Below, piece after piece: positions 2,425 to 60,890 of a stretch of 64,000 bases of DNA; the stretch's first letter is position 1, and each line of letters opens with the position of its first letter. The notes under the pieces were generated by a model. It ran no database searches. It was not told the origin of the DNA and was given only the letters and a program-made list of their open reading frames with translations. The position numbers and the translations under genes were made by a program. Location of the stretch: the NCBI GenBank assembly GCA_002842735.1, contig PHEB01000009.1:1-64000 (forward strand), written 5' to 3'. This DNA comes from Alphaproteobacteria bacterium HGW-Alphaproteobacteria-7 (GTDB lineage: Bacteria; Pseudomonadota; Alphaproteobacteria; Sphingomonadales; Sphingomonadaceae).

Positions 2425-4980
2425 GTGGCGATCACCTCCGCCCGGCTCAACGCGCAGCTTGATAGCAAGCTGGTTCCGGGCAGCGATGGCACGCGCACGA
2501 CGCTGGCGGGGAGCGGGCGGCAGGCGGACTACGGCCCGTTCACCTTCGATGCCGAAATCGCCGCCGATGGCCCGCGCGCGGTGCTGGTGCTGGCCGATCC
2601 TTTGCCAGCAGCGGGCCTCAAGGATGTGCGCGTGGCGCTTGCGCCCAGCGACGAAGGGTTCGGGTTTGATGTCGCAGGCCAATCGCTGCTCGGGCCGTTT
2701 TCAGGCGCGCTCGAACTGTTTTTGCCTGATGCCGCGCCAGCCCGGATCGCGGTCAACCGGCTTGAAGTCTATCGCACCAATGTGACCGGTGCGCTCACGT
2801 TGGGTGAGGCAGGCATGACGGGCGACTTGCGGCTGGCGGGCGGCGGGGTGAACGGCACCGTGAACTTCCGGCCACAGGCCGCAGGGGCAGTTGGTTTTGC
2901 GGTCAATCTGGCCGCCCGCAATGCGGCATTCGCGGGGGAAACCCCGATCAGCATCGCCCGCGCCGACATCGCCGCCACCGGCCGCTATGCCGATGGCAAG
3001 ACGCGGGTTGATGCCGATATCAGCGCGGCGGGGGTGGAATATGGCGCGCTCAATATTGCCAACTTGACCGCCAAGGCGGCGATTGATGATGGACGCGGCA
3101 GGGTTAGCGGAGCGATTGCCGGGCGGCGGGCGGATCGCTTTGCGCTCAATTTCGATGCCACGGTCGCGCCCGAACAAATCGCTGCCGCTGTGCGCGGGGA
3201 ATTTGGCGGGGAAGCGATCACCATGCCGCGCCGCGCGGTGCTGACCGCGCAGGACGATGGCGGATGGCGGCTTGCCCCGACGCAGATCGGTTTTTCGCGT
3301 GGTTACGCCATTGCCGAAGGCCGCTTTGGTGGGGACGAAACCGCTCTAGAGATCAAGCTGGCGCGGATGCCGCTGCGGCTGCTCGATCTGGCGGGTGCGG
3401 GGCTTGGACTGGGCGGGCGGCTGTCGGGTATCATTGATTACCGCCAGCAGGGCCGCGCGCCGCCATCGGCCACGGCGCGGGTGCGGATTGACCGCTTCAG
3501 CCGCGCCGGGCTGGTGCTGTCATCCAAACCGGTCAATGTGCTGGGTGTAGTCGACCTTTCGGCAGATCGGTTGACGGCAGCTGGACGCCTGCTTGAAGGC
3601 GATGCACGGCTCGGTGATGTGGCGGTCAGGATCACCGGGTTGGGCGAGGACGGTGCGTTGATGGAGCGGCTGACGCGCGGGCGGCTGGATGCTCGGTTGG
3701 CGTTTGATGGCGCGGCGGAAACGTTGTGGCGGCTGGCAGCGATTGAGGCGTTCGACCTCACCGGCCCGGTGACCATCGCCGCACGCGCCACCGGAACGCT
3801 CGGCGACCCGCGCATATCGGGCACGCTGACGAGTGATAATCTGACGCTCGAAAGCGCTGTGACCGGCACCCGCATCGAAACGGTGTCCGCGCGCGGGCGG
3901 TTCGCCGGTTCGCGGCTCGAACTCTCCCGCTTTGCCGGAAACACGCGCGGCGGCGGAACGATTATCGGCAGCGGCACGGTCGATCTTGCCGGGATCAGCG
4001 CAACGCGCGGCCCGCAGCTTGATCTGCGCGCTGCGGCCAAGAATGCGCGGCTGCTGGACGCAACTGGGCTGGAGGCGACCATCACCGGCCCCTTGCGTAT
4101 CGTCTCCAGCGGGCGGGGCGGAACCATTGCAGGGCGTGTGACGATCAACCGCGCGCGCTGGGCGTTGGGGGTCGCGGCTGAAGATGTCGCGCTGCCGCAA
4201 ATCGCCACGCGCGAAATTAACGGCGAAGGCGGGGGCGGGCGCACGCAGGTATCGGCGCGGGACAACGCATGGCGTTATCTGGTCAATGCTTCGGCCCCGA
4301 ACCGGGTCGCAGTGGACGGCATGGGGCTTGAAAGCGAATGGGGCATCGACATCGCGCTGCGCGGCACGGTCAATGATCCGCGCATCGGCGGCAGTGCGCG
4401 GTTGGTGCGCGGGGATTACACTTTCGCCGGAACCCGGTTCGAACTCACCCGAGGCCGCATCCTGTTTGACGAGAACGAGCCGATTGATCCCCGGCTGGAT
4501 ATCCTTGCCGAAACATCGCGCAGTGGCACCAATGTGGATATTGCGATCACTGGTAACGCGCAGTCGCCCGCGATTGCGTTTTCGAGCGAACCGGCGCTGC
4601 CAGAAGAAGAAATCCTGTCCCGGCTGCTGTTTGGCGGGTCGGTAACATCACTGTCAGCGACCGACGCGGTGCAACTGGCCGCTGCGCTGGCGGCATTGCA
4701 GGGCGGCGGCGCAGGACTTGACCCGATTGGCGAGCTGCGCCGTTCAATCGGGCTGGATCAATTGCGGATCATCAGTGCCGACCCGCTGATCGGGCGCGAA
4801 ACCGGGGTTGCGCTGGGCAAGAATATCACCCGCAGCCTCTATGTCGAAGTGCTGACCGATGGGCGCGGATACAGCGCCACGCAGGTCGAATACCGGATAA
4901 CCAGCTGGCTGGCGCTGCTGGGTACGGTATCGACCATTGGGCGCGACAGCGTGCTTGTGGAAGTGTCGCGGGATTATTGA
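2425..4980 (+). CDS. tamB: TamB/DUF490 translocation and assembly module protein, C-terminal part only
   Basis: 851 residues from a GTG at 2425; the frame is open back to 2365, so this start is formal. The protein is a long run of beta-strand repeats (RISGTLTSDNLTLES, DPRIGGSARLVRGDY types) and ends with the conserved DUF490 C-terminal region (EILSRLLFGGS around residue 730, then a terminal strand ending SRDY). TamB spans the periplasm from the inner membrane and, with the Omp85 protein TamA, moves lipids or proteins to the outer membrane. Sphingomonad TamB proteins are usually well over 1,200 residues, so the N-terminal anchor and several hundred residues are missing. No tamA lies upstream; foreign-looking DNA does. 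It ends convergently with the lysozyme gene, overlapping by 7 bases. Confidence 0.85.
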   Translation: MAITSARLNAQLDSKLVPGSDGTRTTLAGSGRQADYGPFTFDAEIAADGPRAVLVLADPLPAAGLKDVRVALAPSDEGFGFDVAGQSLLGPFSGALELFLPDAAPARIAVNRLEVYRTNVTGALTLGEAGMTGDLRLAGGGVNGTVNFRPQAAGAVGFAVNLAARNAAFAGETPISIARADIAATGRYADGKTRVDADISAAGVEYGALNIANLTAKAAIDDGRGRVSGAIAGRRADRFALNFDATVAPEQIAAAVRGEFGGEAITMPRRAVLTAQDDGGWRLAPTQIGFSRGYAIAEGRFGGDETALEIKLARMPLRLLDLAGAGLGLGGRLSGIIDYRQQGRAPPSATARVRIDRFSRAGLVLSSKPVNVLGVVDLSADRLTAAGRLLEGDARLGDVAVRITGLGEDGALMERLTRGRLDARLAFDGAAETLWRLAAIEAFDLTGPVTIAARATGTLGDPRISGTLTSDNLTLESAVTGTRIETVSARGRFAGSRLELSRFAGNTRGGGTIIGSGTVDLAGISATRGPQLDLRAAAKNARLLDATGLEATITGPLRIVSSGRGGTIAGRVTINRARWALGVAAEDVALPQIATREINGEGGGGRTQVSARDNAWRYLVNASAPNRVAVDGMGLESEWGIDIALRGTVNDPRIGGSARLVRGDYTFAGTRFELTRGRILFDENEPIDPRLDILAETSRSGTNVDIAITGNAQSPAIAFSSEPALPEEEILSRLLFGGSVTSLSATDAVQLAAALAALQGGGAGLDPIGELRRSIGLDQLRIISADPLIGRETGVALGKNITRSLYVEVLTDGRGYSATQVEYRITSWLALLGTVSTIGRDSVLVEVSRDY

Positions 4981-55816: not shown

Positions 55817-56593
55817 TCACAAAAACGGTTCCTCGCCCGGCCTGTGGATGCCGCATTCGGTCTTGTCCCAGCCTTTCCACCGGCCTGATCGCGGGTCTTC
55901 GCCCGGCGCGACCTGGGTGGTGCAGGGCGAACAGCCGATTGACGGATAGCCAGCCGCGATCAACGGGTGGCGCGGCAGGTCATGCTGAATAAAGTAGCCT
56001 TCGATCTGGCCCGCATCCCAATCGATCAGCGGATTGATTTTGAGCCGCCCAGCTGCGTCCGAGGTATCCACTTCAAAGCGCGGCAGATTGGCGCGGGTGG
56101 CAGCCTGAAACGCCTTCCTGCCGGTGAAACTGGCATCGTAGTTCGCGAGCGCTTTTTCCAGCGGGCGCACCTTGCGGATTTCGCAGCAGCCATCGGGATC
56201 ATAAGACCAGCGCAGCCCGGTTTCATCCCGTGCCGCCAGATCAGCCGGATCGGGCGTCAGCACCACAAGGTTCAGCCCCAGCAGCTGCACAAGGCGATCA
56301 CGATAGGCCAGCGTCTCGGCAAAATGCTTGCCCGTGTCGAGGAACAGCACCGGCACTGACGGATCAACGCTGGCGATCAGGTGCAGCAGCACCGCGCTTT
56401 CCGCGCCGAAGCTGGATACAATCGCCAGATCGCCCGCCAGATTATCGCGGATGACGCTTTCGAGCATATCCCGCGTCGTGCTGCCCCGGAACATCCGGTT
56501 CAATCGCAAGGCATCATGATCGGTAAAGCGCGGCGCGAGGTTCAACGTGTCGCGGGTGCGCGCGGCGGTGGGCAGCGACAAGTCAGGCTTCAT
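55817..56593 (-). CDS. cysH: Assimilatory adenylyl-/phosphoadenylyl-sulfate reductase with a [4Fe-4S] motif
   Basis: 258 residues from ATG at 56591-56593. VSSFGAESAVLLHL is the substrate P-loop. Cys136-Cys137 and Cys221-x2-Cys224 form the CC...CxxC iron-sulfur motif that marks APS-reducing enzymes, and the catalytic cysteine is Cys247 in ECGIH. It reduces activated sulfate to sulfite. It is the last gene of the overlapping cobA-DUF2849-cysI-DUF934-cysH block and overlaps DUF934 by 11 bases. Confidence 0.95.
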   Translation of the reverse strand: MKPDLSLPTAARTRDTLNLAPRFTDHDALRLNRMFRGSTTRDMLESVIRDNLAGDLAIVSSFGAESAVLLHLIASVDPSVPVLFLDTGKHFAETLAYRDRLVQLLGLNLVVLTPDPADLAARDETGLRWSYDPDGCCEIRKVRPLEKALANYDASFTGRKAFQAATRANLPRFEVDTSDAAGRLKINPLIDWDAGQIEGYFIQHDLPRHPLIAAGYPSIGCSPCTTQVAPGEDPRSGRWKGWDKTECGIHRPGEEPFL

Positions 56594-57044
56594 GGCGTTT
56601 GTCCGCGATCGTGCGGCGCGTATCTGCGGCGCGTTGATAGACATTGTCCCATGTGGCGAAGGCGCGGGCGGCGTCGCCTTCGTCCAGCCGTTTGTCCGGG
56701 GCGAAACTGTCAAACCCGCAGCGGAGCATATGGCTAAGCTGATCGATCAATACATCGCCCACCGCGCGCAATTCTCCGGTGTAGCCCGCCTCACGCAGAA
56801 TCCGCGCCGCCGAATAGCCGCGCCCGTCGGTGAAGCTAGGGAAATTGACCTCAACCAGCGCCAGCCGGTCAAGGAACGGCAGCAACAGCCGCGCATCATC
56901 GCCCGGTTCGATCCGCACAGCGGTGGCGTTGGTCTGATCGCAGCAGGAGTCCACGGTGACGGTGCCGTGATCGACGGGTTCATCATCGCGGAACCGGAAC
57001 TGCACTTCGTCGGGGCTGGTGCCGAGATCGCGGGACTCAACCAT
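56583..57044 (-). CDS. DUF934 protein of the sulfite reduction operon
   Basis: 153 residues from ATG at 57042-57044, overlapping the cysI stop by 8 bases. The PFLDRLALVEVNFPSFTDGRGYSAARILRE segment is the DUF934 signature. The family is almost always found with cysI and cysH and is thought to help sulfite reduction, but has no proven activity. CCD (about residues 33-35) gives a cysteine pair. The cysI start-to-stop overlap on both sides shows strict coupling. Confidence 0.88.
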   Translation of the reverse strand: MVESRDLGTSPDEVQFRFRDDEPVDHGTVTVDSCCDQTNATAVRIEPGDDARLLLPFLDRLALVEVNFPSFTDGRGYSAARILREAGYTGELRAVGDVLIDQLSHMLRCGFDSFAPDKRLDEGDAARAFATWDNVYQRAADTRRTIADKRHEA

Positions 57045-58710
57045 AAAGCGCCTCCTTGAACGGTTCCATGCCGATCCGGCGGTAGGTGTCGATGAAGCGT
57101 TCGCCATCAGTGCGCGCGTCGAGATAGACGTCGGTGACAGTCTCAACCGCCGCGATCACGCCGTCTTCGTCAAAGCCGGGACCGGTGATCTTGGCGAGGC
57201 TGACGTCCTCCGCCTCAGACCCGCCCAATGAAAGCTGGTAATTCTCGGTGCCTTTCCGGTCGACGCCAAGGATCCCGATATGGCCCGCGTGGTGGTGCCC
57301 GCAGGCGTTGATGCAGCCTGAAATCTTGAGCTTCAATTCGCCCACCACTTCGGTGCGTCCGCTCTCGGCAAAGCGTTCCGAAATGCGCTGCGCCAGCGGG
57401 ATCGAGCGGGCATTGGCGAGGCTGCAATAATCAAGGCCGGGGCAGGCGATGATGTCCTCGATCGTGTCCATGTTCGGCGCGGCGAGGCCAGCTGCATCCA
57501 GCGCCGCCCAGATCACGGGAAGATCGGCAATCCGCACGTGCGGCAGCAGCAGGTTCTGGGTGTGCATCACCCGCAATTCGTCAAAACTGTATTCGCGCGC
57601 CAGCCGTGCCACGATCCGCATCTGATCGGCGGTGGCATCGCCGGGAATGCCGCCCACGGGTTTGAGGCTGATGACGGCGGAGACGTATCCCGGCGCCCTG
57701 TGCGGGTGGGTGTTGCGGCGCACCCACAATCCAAACCCGTCATCCCAGCGCAGGCTGGGATCTCCGGCGGCTTTGCTCTGCAATTGCTCCAGGTCCCAGC
57801 TTTCGCTGGGATGACGGAACGTGGGCGGAGCGAAATATTCCGCAATCCGCGCCAATTCCTCACGCGGCGGCTCCACCCCCACGCTTAGCAGATGGGCGAA
57901 TTCCTCCTCGACCTGCCGCGTATATTCCGCCGCGCCCAGTTCGTGGACGAGGATCTTGATCCGCGCCTTGTATTTATTGTCGCGCCGACCGTAGCGGTTG
58001 TAGACCCGCAAGCACGCCTCGGCATAGGTGATCAGCTGATCGATCGGCACGAAATCGCGCACCAGCGGCGCGATCATCGGGGTGCGGCCCATGCCGCCGC
58101 CGACATAGAACTGCGCGCCCGTTTCTCCGGCCGCGTTCTGCACAATGCGGATGCCGATATCGTGCAGCCGCATCGCCGCGCGGTCTTTTGCGCTCGCGAT
58201 CACGCAGAACTTGAACTTGCGCGGCAGGTAAGTAAATTCGGGGTGAAAGCTCGACCATTGGCGCAGCAATTCGGCATAGGGGCGCGGATCGGTGACTTCA
58301 TCGACGGCCGCGCCCGCGAAGTGATCGGCGCTGATATTGCGGATGCAATTGCCGCTGGTCTGGATCGCGTGCATCTCGTGCCTAGCCAGATCGGCGAGCG
58401 CGTCGGCGGCGTCTTCCAACCTGATCCAGTTATACTGGATGTTCTGCCGAGTGGTGAAATGGCCGTAGCCGCGATCATATTTCTCGGCGATGTCGGCCAG
58501 CGCCTCCATCTGGCGCGCATTGAGCGTGCCATAGGGGATCGCCACGCGCAGCATATAGGCGTGAAGCTGGAGATAGAGGCCGTTCATCAACCGCAGCGGC
58601 TTGAACTGGTCTTCGGTCAAGCGGCCTTCCATGCGGCGGCGCGCCTGATCGCGGAATTCTTCGACGCGGGCATCGACCATGGCTTGATCGTATGAGTCGT
58701 ATTGGTACAT
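57037..58710 (-). CDS. cysI: Sulfite (nitrite/sulfite) reductase hemoprotein
   Basis: 557 residues. The duplicated ferredoxin-like and siroheme domains are present, with the cluster cysteines in CPGLDYCSLANARS and GCINACGHHHAGHIG. NIQYNWIRLEDAAD and TSGNCIRNISADHFAG are typical of the first half. It reduces sulfite to sulfide in six-electron steps, probably with ferredoxin. Residues about 298-325 are encoded by an inserted palindromic repeat (57737-57817) and look like no sulfite reductase sequence. Its start shares bases with the DUF2849 stop. Confidence 0.94.
   Translation of the reverse strand: MYQYDSYDQAMVDARVEEFRDQARRRMEGRLTEDQFKPLRLMNGLYLQLHAYMLRVAIPYGTLNARQMEALADIAEKYDRGYGHFTTRQNIQYNWIRLEDAADALADLARHEMHAIQTSGNCIRNISADHFAGAAVDEVTDPRPYAELLRQWSSFHPEFTYLPRKFKFCVIASAKDRAAMRLHDIGIRIVQNAAGETGAQFYVGGGMGRTPMIAPLVRDFVPIDQLITYAEACLRVYNRYGRRDNKYKARIKILVHELGAAEYTRQVEEEFAHLLSVGVEPPREELARIAEYFAPPTFRHPSESWDLEQLQSKAAGDPSLRWDDGFGLWVRRNTHPHRAPGYVSAVISLKPVGGIPGDATADQMRIVARLAREYSFDELRVMHTQNLLLPHVRIADLPVIWAALDAAGLAAPNMDTIEDIIACPGLDYCSLANARSIPLAQRISERFAESGRTEVVGELKLKISGCINACGHHHAGHIGILGVDRKGTENYQLSLGGSEAEDVSLAKITGPGFDEDGVIAAVETVTDVYLDARTDGERFIDTYRRIGMEPFKEALYG
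57737..57817. repeat. 81-bp palindromic repeat inside the cysI reading frame
   Basis: CCGTCATCCCAGCG and CGCTGGGATGACGG (14 bp) are perfect inverted ends. Each end also folds locally: ATCCCAGC-GCAG-GCTGGGAT and TCCCAGC-TTTC-GCTGGGA. The length is a multiple of three, so 27 codons are added without shifting the frame. Confidence 0.85.
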
Positions 58711-59009
58711 CAGATCACCCAGTCCCAGCCGGTTTTGTCCGCAGTCGGCACCGCCAGATCGCGCCGCACCGTCGGGCCGAGCGCGCGCACACGGTCTTTG
58801 ATATGCGCGGGGCGAACATGGCCGCCTGCGTCGATGCTGGCGTCGATTGCGTAAGGTACATTGACCCGGCGCGCGGCCTCTTCACGGGCGAGGATTTCTT
58901 CAGAATCATCACCTGCATCGACTGCATCATCGACGAACAGCGACCAGCCGGAGCCGTTCCACCACACCACCGCGCCCGAACGAAGGTCATTGCCGGTGAG
59001 GATTTTCAT
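58710..59009 (-). CDS. DUF2849 protein
   Basis: 99 residues from ATG at 59007-59009. MKILTGNDLRSGAVVWW, then an acidic middle (DDAVDAGDDSEEILAREEAARRVNVPY) and AHIKDRVRALGPTVRRD, fit DUF2849. The family is confined to sulfur-assimilation loci of alphaproteobacteria and has no known activity. It overlaps both the cobA-type gene and cysI. Confidence 0.88.
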   Translation of the reverse strand: MKILTGNDLRSGAVVWWNGSGWSLFVDDAVDAGDDSEEILAREEAARRVNVPYAIDASIDAGGHVRPAHIKDRVRALGPTVRRDLAVPTADKTGWDWVI

Positions 59010-59761
59010 TGCGCGGCCTCCTTCGCGAGCGCTGCGACGGCCGCATTCTCGCGCGCCGTAACCTCACCAATCACGATCAGCGCGGGGCTTTTCACCGCTT
59101 CGCGCGCGACCAGTTGCGGAAGGCCTGCCAGCAGCCCGCGCAGCACTCGCATTTCGGGGCGCGCGGCGTTTTCGATCACGGCGATGGGCATGTCGGGGGC
59201 GAGCCCGTCGCCCATCAGCTTTTCGGCAATTTGCGGCGCGGTGGACACGCCCATGTAGATCACCAGCGTGCGGCCAGCGCCCGCAAGGCCTGACCAATCC
59301 TGCTCGGAAAGCCCCTTGCACTGGCCAGCGACAAAGCTGACGATGCTGGATGCGTCGCGGTGCGTCAGCGCAATCCCGCTCGCCGCTGCTGCGCCGTTCG
59401 CCGCCGAAATGCCGGGGATGATTTCGACCGGAACGCCGGCTGCGCGCGCGGCCTCTGCCTCCTCACCGCCGCGCCCGAAGATGAACGGATCGCCGCCTTT
59501 CAGCCGCACGACATCGCGGCCCGCCAGCGCCTCATCCACCAGCAGCGCGTTGATATCATCCTGCGCCATGGTGTGGCGCGCGCGGCGTTTGGCGACTGGT
59601 ATCAGCCGCGCATCGGCGCGCGCCAGCCCAAGAATATCGGGGCCGACAAGCCCATCATGCACGATCACCCGCGCAGCTTCGATCAGCCGCGCGGCGCGCA
59701 GGGTGAGGAGGTCTGCCGGGCCAGGCCCCGCGCCAACCAGATAGATGGTGCCAATCTGCAT
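59006..59761 (-). CDS. cobA: Uroporphyrinogen-III C-methyltransferase (siroheme pathway)
   Basis: 251 residues from ATG at 59759-59761. The N-terminal VGAGPGPADLLTLRA and VVRLKGGDPFIFGRGGEEA, then VEIIPGISAANGAAAASGIALTHRD, are the SUMT signatures. It makes precorrin-2 for siroheme, the cofactor of the CysI encoded two genes downstream; the CysG dehydrogenase/ferrochelatase half is absent here. It overlaps DUF2849 by 4 bases. The longer in-frame extension upstream has no ribosome site. Confidence 0.94.
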   Translation of the reverse strand: MQIGTIYLVGAGPGPADLLTLRAARLIEAARVIVHDGLVGPDILGLARADARLIPVAKRRARHTMAQDDINALLVDEALAGRDVVRLKGGDPFIFGRGGEEAEAARAAGVPVEIIPGISAANGAAAASGIALTHRDASSIVSFVAGQCKGLSEQDWSGLAGAGRTLVIYMGVSTAPQIAEKLMGDGLAPDMPIAVIENAARPEMRVLRGLLAGLPQLVAREAVKSPALIVIGEVTARENAAVAALAKEAAQ

Positions 59762-59828
59762 GACACCGCAAATGGGCGAGCGTGCGTCGCCGTGCCAGCG
59801 AGAATGGATTGGAGCCGTAAAAGCCCAG

Positions 59829-60890
59829 CTATTGCCCGTCCCGTTCCGCGTCATCGCTGCGCTGCGTCAAGGCCGCGATCAGCGCCTTGACCTGCGCATT
59901 GTCGCGCAGGTTGATGTCGCGCTGCGGGAAGGGGATTTCGATCCCGTGTTCCTTGAACAGCCACCACAGGTTTTTCAGCACTTCGCTGCGGACATTGCCC
60001 ACCCCGTCTTCGGGATCGGTGATCCAGCAATGGATGGTAAAATTGACCGAGCTATCGCCATATTCGCTCATCCACACGGTCGGCGGCGGGGTTTTCAGCA
60101 CCCGTCGAGCCTTGGCCGCCGCTTCGAGCATCAGCTTTTCGGCCAGTTCCATATCGGCATCATAACTGACCCCGACATTGACCTGAATGCGCACATTTCT
60201 GGATGAATAAGACCAGTTTTCCACCTGATTGATCATCAAGTTTTCGTTGGGAATTAGGTATTCACGTTCATCGCGGGTGACGACTGAGATGGCACGAATG
60301 CCGATCCTGCGGATTTGCCCGAAGGTGTGATTGCCCGACTGATCGGCCACCGCAATCACATCGCCCGGCTTGATCGATTTATCCATCAACAGGATGATGC
60401 CCGAAATCAGATTGCCGAAGGTTTTCTGCAGCCCGAACCCGATGGCAAGCCCGAACGCGCCCGAAAATACCGTGAGCGCGGTGAGATCGATCCCGAGCAG
60501 ATCGACGCCCATGAAGAAGGTCACCACCCAGATGATGATCGTGGCGATTTTCTCGGTCAAAACACGTTGCGTGCTGTCAAGCGCGGTCAGGTGGCGTAGC
60601 GCGCTGCGGGTCAGCCGGGTGGCAGCCCACGCAAATCCTACCAACAGCAGCACCGCCATCACGGCGAACAGCACGTCGAACGCGGATATTCGCCAGTTGC
60701 CGACCGCCACCGCCCAGCTATCCATCCGGTTGAGGATATCGCCGATGGTTTCATTTTTCGCCGCAATATCTGCGCGCACATTGTCCGCGCCGCTGACGAT
60801 TTGTTCAGGGGTAACGGTGGGGGCAGATGTCGGCGCAGGGTCGGGGGCGGTGTCGGAGGCGGGATCGGGAGTTGGAATTGGCGCAATCAT
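59829..60890 (-). CDS. MscS-type mechanosensitive channel
   Basis: 353 residues. A Pro-rich N-terminus, three membrane helices (about 70-90, 112-130 and 138-165) and the MscS beta-domain. The pore helix reads LTVFSGAFGLAIGFGLQKTFGNLISGIILLMD, as in MscS, followed by DKSIKPGDVI. The C-terminal cytoplasmic part is intact. It releases osmolytes under hypo-osmotic shock. Its ATG overlaps the metC stop (ATGA), an odd partner for a sulfur gene. Confidence 0.93.
   Translation of the reverse strand: MIAPIPTPDPASDTAPDPAPTSAPTVTPEQIVSGADNVRADIAAKNETIGDILNRMDSWAVAVGNWRISAFDVLFAVMAVLLLVGFAWAATRLTRSALRHLTALDSTQRVLTEKIATIIIWVVTFFMGVDLLGIDLTALTVFSGAFGLAIGFGLQKTFGNLISGIILLMDKSIKPGDVIAVADQSGNHTFGQIRRIGIRAISVVTRDEREYLIPNENLMINQVENWSYSSRNVRIQVNVGVSYDADMELAEKLMLEAAAKARRVLKTPPPTVWMSEYGDSSVNFTIHCWITDPEDGVGNVRSEVLKNLWWLFKEHGIEIPFPQRDINLRDNAQVKALIAALTQRSDDAERDGQ

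Follow-up and report, generated by a model that had tools for sequence, protein, structure and literature searches.

An in-frame palindromic repeat in a sphingomonad sulfite reductase, and the different repeats that fill the same CysI linker in other lineages

Introduction

How does a dispersed palindromic repeat come to lie inside the reading frame of a core metabolic enzyme, and does the enzyme carry the peptide that it encodes? This question is raised by the sulfite reductase gene in the window, which is the whole stretch of 64,000 nucleotides analyzed here. A first-pass annotation had proposed that an 81-bp palindromic repeat adds 27 codons to cysI at about residues 298 to 325, without a stop or frameshift and within normal CysI sequence, and that such repeats can create new protein segments, as in Rickettsia.

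Results

The repeat is read in frame in an intact cysI gene

The minus-strand open reading frame at 57037–58710 encodes a cysI-type sulfite reductase hemoprotein of 557 residues, and it is read through the repeat with no stop and no frameshift, as had been proposed. Pfam finds the NIR_SIR and NIR_SIR_ferr domains in two stretches each, and all features of the class are present (two NIR_SIR domains, two ferredoxin-like half domains and the cysteine motifs); the nearest solved structure, both by sequence and by predicted fold (Z 33.2), is NirA (1zj8). The motifs CPGLDYC (residues 423–429) and CINAC (residues 466–470), which we take to be the siroheme/4Fe-4S ligands, are intact, and the gene therefore bears no mark of a dead gene; the inactive gene that would have spoken against the proposal is, as judged by frame and motifs, not what is seen. 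By eye, the region 55817–59854 of the window looks like a sulfate-assimilation cluster, with a cysH-like gene, cysI and a uroporphyrinogen methyltransferase-like gene.

The peptide encoded by the repeat, RHPSESWDLEQLQSKAAGDPSLRWDDG, occupies residues 299–325 (codons at 57736–57816, minus strand), which confirms the proposed region and sets its exact limits. The repeat does encode 27 codons, but a simple addition of 27 codons is rejected: the segment from EEEFA to PGY has 75 residues in the window versus 61–62 in the native members of the genus, and a native stretch like VDGPKTVDRSDPD is absent from the window protein. The native loop has thus been replaced, and the net gain is 13–14 codons. 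Likewise, CysI is otherwise intact, but the residues beside the insert are not those of a normal CysI, being VRRN/HPHRAPGY in the window versus VDRN/HRHKHDAY in the nearest native rows; on sequence comparison, the downstream flank FGLWVRRNTHPHRAPGY (57685–57735, minus strand) is unlike the flank of these rows.

The repeat has the form of a CGTC-tagged REP dimer

Genome search, folding and comparison with published REPs (PMC3733652) describe the 81-bp repeat (57737–57817) as a head-to-head dimer of two CGTC-tagged REP halves. Half 1 (57738–57761, plus strand) has a CGTC tag, the 8-bp stem ATCCCAGC/GCTGGGAT and the 4-base loop GCAG, and half 2 (57793–57816, minus strand) has a CGTC tag, the stem ATCCCAGC/GCTGGGAC and the 4-base loop GAAA. 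The stem of half 1 is fully paired, the first pair of half 2 is an A-C mispair, and the tags lie at the outer ends of both halves. The predicted fold of the repeat strand (104 nt with flanks) has an energy of −56.4 kcal/mol versus −34.9 ± 3.4 kcal/mol for shuffled sequences (z −6.3), and none of 200 shuffles folds as well.

When the repeat is used as a query against its own genome (2.66 Mb, 39 contigs), 59 matches are obtained at E ≤ 10; with a limit of about 0.005 on E, 25 places were retained and the weaker matches dropped. Half-sites are seen at 24 of the 25 retained loci, and the 25 loci hold 22 opposed dimers and three single halves (with at most six mismatches per half); 82 bp is the length of 13 of the 22 dimers. 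Three dimers lie inside long open reading frames recognized as conserved, namely cysI, ileS and uvrA, and the remaining 19, assessed by eye and by the length of the ORFs only, appear to be intergenic or nearly so. In cysS there is one more dimer, a degenerate one with five and six mismatches in its halves, which was left out of the 22. The first-pass annotation had suggested a search for other reading frames that encode a similar peptide; REP dimers are found in ileS and uvrA, and in degenerate form in cysS. Within the window, the 20 largest families of direct repeats and the 25 longest pairs of inverted ones (at least 30 nt) include no second copy. About 3 kb past the end of the window, at about 3036–3117 of locus L144 (G000:C17), there is a sequence related to the UvrA insert of two other genomes (G259 and G306).

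REPINs are paired inverted REPs dispersed as a unit, with a GTAG tag and a RAYT transposase gene. The window dimer is like them in being a pair of inverted REPs, and unlike them in its CGTC tag and in its relation to transposases. Of two Y1_Tnp matches in the genome, one is full-length and one partial, and no REP was found within the 3.4-kb locus of the full-length Y1 transposase, so that the arrangement of GTAG-tagged REPs flanking a RAYT gene is not present there. A Y1 transposase of 162 residues, which is IS200-sized, is encoded at L147 (G000:C39:188497–188853), near an open reading frame that by eye resembles a tyrosine recombinase. Its sequence identifies the element as a REP dimer of the CGTC type, one of the palindromes scattered over this genome, and its apparent translation in frame within cysI agrees with what had been proposed.

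Different repeats occupy one CysI loop

A CysI match is found in 112 of 114 genomes of the genus, with no stop inside any of the matched stretches, and 111 loops are readable, including that of the window; one genome (G283), with CysI in pieces and the loop missing, was excluded. The loop is native in 92 genomes, of type C in nine, of type B in five, of type A in four and of type D in one, so that 19 of the 111 loops are repeat-derived, of four distinct kinds, every one in frame and at one shared site. Type A is HPSESWDL..., type B is RRPGPRAGTPL...GVPGQARDGG, type C is VSSEVETPFEQRLSTTLEANGG and shorter forms, and type D (L215) is a single CGTC-like REP. An odd 65-residue loop, DHFPSGELDPDDLDDPDF (L174, from G270), is unplaced and is tallied here as native, and it could be a worn repeat. 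The segment is lacking in the 92 native members, including the nearest native sister (G233), and it is met solely as a copy of the repeat, never in relatives that lack the repeat. Mis-assembly of one genome is rejected as its source, the same kind of loop being present in G255, G269, G257 and G158 (one contig).

Filled loops are also found beyond this set. Type A occurs in G158 (one of five genomes of its genus) and in L064, and Aurantiacibacter xanthus (L081) has a type C loop. G006 and G316 (two of ten in their genus) carry another CGTC heterodimer, named B2. In a Sphingomonadales metagenome-assembled genome (L109), another palindrome, AAAATAGGGACAGTCCCTATTTT, here named type E, lies in frame at the CysI loop, with the native DRSDPDF retained behind it; type E has zero matches among the other loci compared, and it is therefore the palindrome itself that marks it as a repeat. 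Types A, B, B2 and D can be told apart by sequence, but they all look CGTC-tagged, whereas C and E do not. The longest perfect stem in the loop DNA has a median (range) of 19.5 (11–26) for type A, 8 (7–10) for C and 8 (8–11) for B, versus 5 (4–10) for native loops. In a chosen set of 18 genomes, types A, B and C prove to be dispersed repeats, each matched in 14, in counts that take in both strands of one palindrome.

Elsewhere in CysI, internal insertions of at least four residues are seen in five rows only, with lengths of 4–9 residues, among 230 rows in which some genomes are represented twice (reference, the native L152); many of the CysI rows come from metagenome-assembled genomes. In different lineages, one CysI linker is filled by palindromic repeats of about six recognizable kinds (A, B, B2, C, D and E), and the alignment of CysI from relatives that the first-pass annotation had called for has delimited the insertion.

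The loop type departs from the gene tree

The distribution of the loop types was compared with a loop-free tree of 139 cysI genes, a quick tree with SH-aLRT support only, in which 39 of 136 inner branches are open. On this tree, at least 19 changes among seven types are needed, and the well-supported branches force at least five changes for A, at least six for C and at least four for B. The window gene and that of G255, a 96% relative, are sister to the native gene of G233, and the type A rows of the genus fall at three places. The loop type departs from the gene tree. Whole-gene transfer as the sole cause of this scatter is rejected, since on the loop-free tree L031 does not join the clade of the window gene, and L081 is placed next to native genes of Aurantiacibacter type. 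Identity windows show no clear recombination tract around the loop.

The type A spacers of CysI in the four genus members are 79–97% alike, versus at most 73% when they are compared with 72 genomic spacers in both orientations, and pS across these four inserts is 0.139 versus 0.378 for the rest of the gene. For type B, the search covered three of the five rows (G215, G235 and G306): the G306 copy is matched at 95% by that of G215 and at 93% by that of G235, versus at most 83% for any other match of at least 70 bases in the 18 genomes, with shorter partial matches of up to 100%. A further B row, L176, is far more divergent than the other four. The CysI copies of these A and B rows are closer to each other than to any further copy of comparable length in the comparison, which points to a shared origin plus exchange between lineages, and it is likely, on these comparisons, that filled loops of type A (four rows) and type B (the three tested) have a common origin and have moved between lineages. 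Copies of type C from outside CysI are just as close as those within it, so that repeated capture and exchange look alike; repeated capture would be an equally possible origin for type C and for the type A loops of L031 and L064.

Constraint on the peptide and its place in the fold

In the comparisons of pN/pS, in which the pairs are not independent, the six type A inserts have a value of 0.28 (0.13–0.51) versus 0.21 for the rest of the gene. This six-row value includes L031 and L064 and, if these are separate captures, partly reflects the repeat family instead of protein evolution. For the four genus rows, the insert value is 0.44 (0.27–1.13) versus 0.15. The type B insert has a value of 0.71 (0.41–1.27) and the type C insert values of 0.31 (0.06–1.05) and 0.24 (0.04–0.87), and the rest of the gene is lower, at 0.12–0.16, in the B, C and four-row A sets. 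Constraint on the peptide is indicated by these values for type A, and it appears weak or undecided for types B and C. In L064, the palindrome has been partly lost by synonymous differences (CCC to CCG, GAT GAC to GAC GAT), and DPSFRWDDG is kept.

The AlphaFold2 model of the window protein has a mean pLDDT of 84.7 and a predicted helix at residues 307–314, with values of 88, 77, 83 and 89 for the 10-residue blocks over 291–330. The type C protein L081 is predicted to have a helix at 308–317, with block values of 86, 64, 83 and 91. The alignment with 1zj8 is interrupted from query residue 273 to residue 353, and by this reading the insert region is the linker that joins the homologous halves of CysI; the predicted model and the alignment suggest a surface position for the segment. 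As far as can be judged from the open frame, the intact motifs and the pN/pS values, the segment is probably present in the translated CysI.

Loops of UvrA, CysS and IleS

The IleS, UvrA and CysS genes were named by eye and by alignment with relatives, and all counts include the own genome. The IleS of the window genome (L008, G000:C31) has repeat-derived peptides in two loops, and its relatives (L335–L354) have other repeats, other sequence or nothing at those loops; one loop is filled in six of 21 genes, with three kinds of repeat, and the other in two of 21. In UvrA, repeat-derived loops occur at one place in seven of the best 30 loci (of 56 genomes matched among 61), with at least four kinds. 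The own gene (L013/L355, G000:C37, compared with L356–L384) has its own REP dimer in frame, five relatives have other repeat peptides, and the sister G233 has a half copy at the same loop; the UvrA loop table holds 29 of the 30 loops, L362, which did not fit the pattern, having been read separately. In CysS, ten of the best 30 loci (of 58 matched among 61) have repeat-derived loops, of two kinds: LPGAGRDPA..LRRGDEW in the own genome (L009/L385, G000:C16) and in L386, and a RHAELVSASI..WTLKQVQGD-type loop in eight of the best 30 (among L386–L414).

A search with 29 filled loops against the loci compared gave, for 28 of them, one or more matches in another gene or between genes, and some of these matches are short or weak, as for the second IleS loop of the window genome. 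The type C family is common to CysI, IleS and UvrA.

Discussion

The best reading of these data combines loops that tolerate insertion, a filter by selection and spreading through recombination. Very probably, a REP dimer was captured in frame in a permissive CysI linker, where it replaced the native loop; the linker was refilled in different lineages, the survivors were filtered and the filled loops spread by recombination, with IleS, UvrA and CysS affected likewise. On this account, the repeat would arrive through its own dispersal mechanism, and most insertions would presumably disrupt the protein and be lost. Copies that are free of stops and in the right phase would survive in tolerant loops, and they would be trimmed, so that the net length stays modest. 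The repeat-derived peptide would then evolve as protein, and homologous recombination would carry filled and native loops across species. In this genus, IleS, UvrA and CysS loops would be subject to the same process.

It is also conceivable that the filled loops are adaptive cassettes, with peptides kept because they help and loop types maintained as a polymorphism shared across species. This is in agreement with the pN/pS of the six type A rows, which is near the whole-gene value, with loop types that are common to several species and scattered on the tree, and with the predicted helices that two different repeats form at one place. We consider it unlikely, however, since tolerance together with purifying selection against disruptive change fits the same data, 92 of the 111 genus members do without a repeat loop and type B is weakly constrained.

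Another possibility is that insertion is directed to this DNA, with, for example, a CGTC/GACG-like site of the native loop as its target. Different kinds of repeat do share one short stretch of cysI, the native L152 has CGTCGACGG at the site and near versions occur in the other three of the four native rows compared, and several inserts start with CCGT or CGTC and finish with ACGG. Against such a preference, kinds with different ends use the one site, loops of IleS, UvrA and CysS are also hit, and just three of the genome's 22 dimers fall within long open reading frames recognized as conserved; a targeted site is accordingly an improbable explanation.

Ribosome hopping over palindromes is known from Magnusiomyces mitochondria (PMC6649704), and the hairpin of the window repeat is strong, so that the segment could in principle be absent from the protein. 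Hopping is nevertheless very improbable here: the frame is open through every repeat-bearing loop read, loops of 71, 74, 75 and 78 residues all keep the downstream frame, and the six type A rows differ more often at synonymous than at nonsynonymous sites. That the insert is one of the lesions of a decaying gene is hardly credible, unusual as an insertion in a core enzyme may be, given the stop-free matched stretches in 112 of 114 genus genomes, the intact cysteine motifs and a pN/pS of 0.21 for the rest of the gene among the six type A rows; a pseudogene is rejected on the same stop-free stretches and motifs.

The capture of repeats in permissive loops may be part of something broader. New protein segments seem to arise from these repeats time and again, and we suggest tentatively, as an idea that we still hold to be somewhat doubtful, that dispersed palindromes form a standing pool of stop-free peptides, from which a few acceptor loops are repeatedly refilled; the loops would then pass between species as cassettes, and selection on the peptide would retain them. 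If true, free-living bacteria would have here a lasting means of gaining new protein segments. Across close relatives there is a natural series in which one loop of a biosynthetic enzyme is native or comes from several repeats, with the same repeat families elsewhere in the genomes, and loop swaps would therefore directly test whether the peptides are carried along neutrally or can give rise to new functions. As a warning, a loop insertion seen in a sphingomonad protein may have come from a repeat.

The best-known coding palindromes are those of the intracellular Rickettsia and Wolbachia, and the bacteria considered here are free-living, as judged from the named isolates among the relatives. 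The Rickettsia palindromic elements (RPEs) were reportedly described by Ogata in 2000 and 2002, and the first of them are about 150 bp and rickettsial; the window repeat, an 81-bp REP dimer, is set apart from RPE-1 by description. RPEs are inserted in frame in unrelated genes, where the peptide is tolerated (PMC10969869), and by analogy the window repeat would be a similar case, an in-frame palindrome in a gene with a peptide that seems to be tolerated. The creation of a new protein segment in the manner of an RPE, which the first-pass annotation had put forward, is to this extent supported. The Wolbachia palindromic elements (WPEs) are in-frame inserts in addA, addB and priA, stop-free in most strains (PMC4224334); they share the in-frame insertion with the window repeat, and they are other repeats in other genes, for which the sections of PMC4224334 at hand do not describe serial refilling of loops. 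RPEs and WPEs are, as far as these three sources go, the known coding palindromes (PMC10969869, PMC4224334, PMC6649704).

A close parallel is found in the CGTC-1/2 REPs of Di Nocera, De Gregorio and Rocco (2013, PMC3733652), some copies of which are in frame within genes. The window repeat is like these CGTC REPs, as the parts of that paper at hand describe them, in its CGTC tag, 8-bp stem, 4-base loop, head-to-head dimers and lack of a linked transposase. It agrees with their stems of 8–9 bp that start with complementary A and T and with their loops of 4–5 bases, and it fits the CGTC-1 description except for its tails, which are CTC and CTG versus the CCA consensus of most, not all, of those elements. 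The intragenic CGTC repeats of R. conorii correspond, according to the same pages, to RPE-4 and RPE-6, which makes these the closer kin of the window repeat among the RPEs.

In-frame CGTC REPs are reported there in tRNA synthetases of S. alaskensis and of 'E. lithoralis', which is taken to be Erythrobacter litoralis; uvrA is among the REP-carrying genes in other species, and CysI is not among the genes named in the parts of PMC3733652 covered. Outside the recB case, in which two Xanthomonas carry different REPs at about one site (PMC3733652), the parts of the open-licence literature covered gave no report of one loop being refilled serially by several families of repeats. In-frame REPs and RPEs are known already, including in-frame CGTC REPs in sphingomonads, and what is unreported in the literature covered is the repeated refilling of the same loops by several families. 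Compared with the one gene, recB, for which PMC3733652 describes different REPs, about six kinds of repeat are found here at one CysI loop, and, unlike the cases described there, native and filled loops are mixed within one genus, with three further enzymes showing the same.
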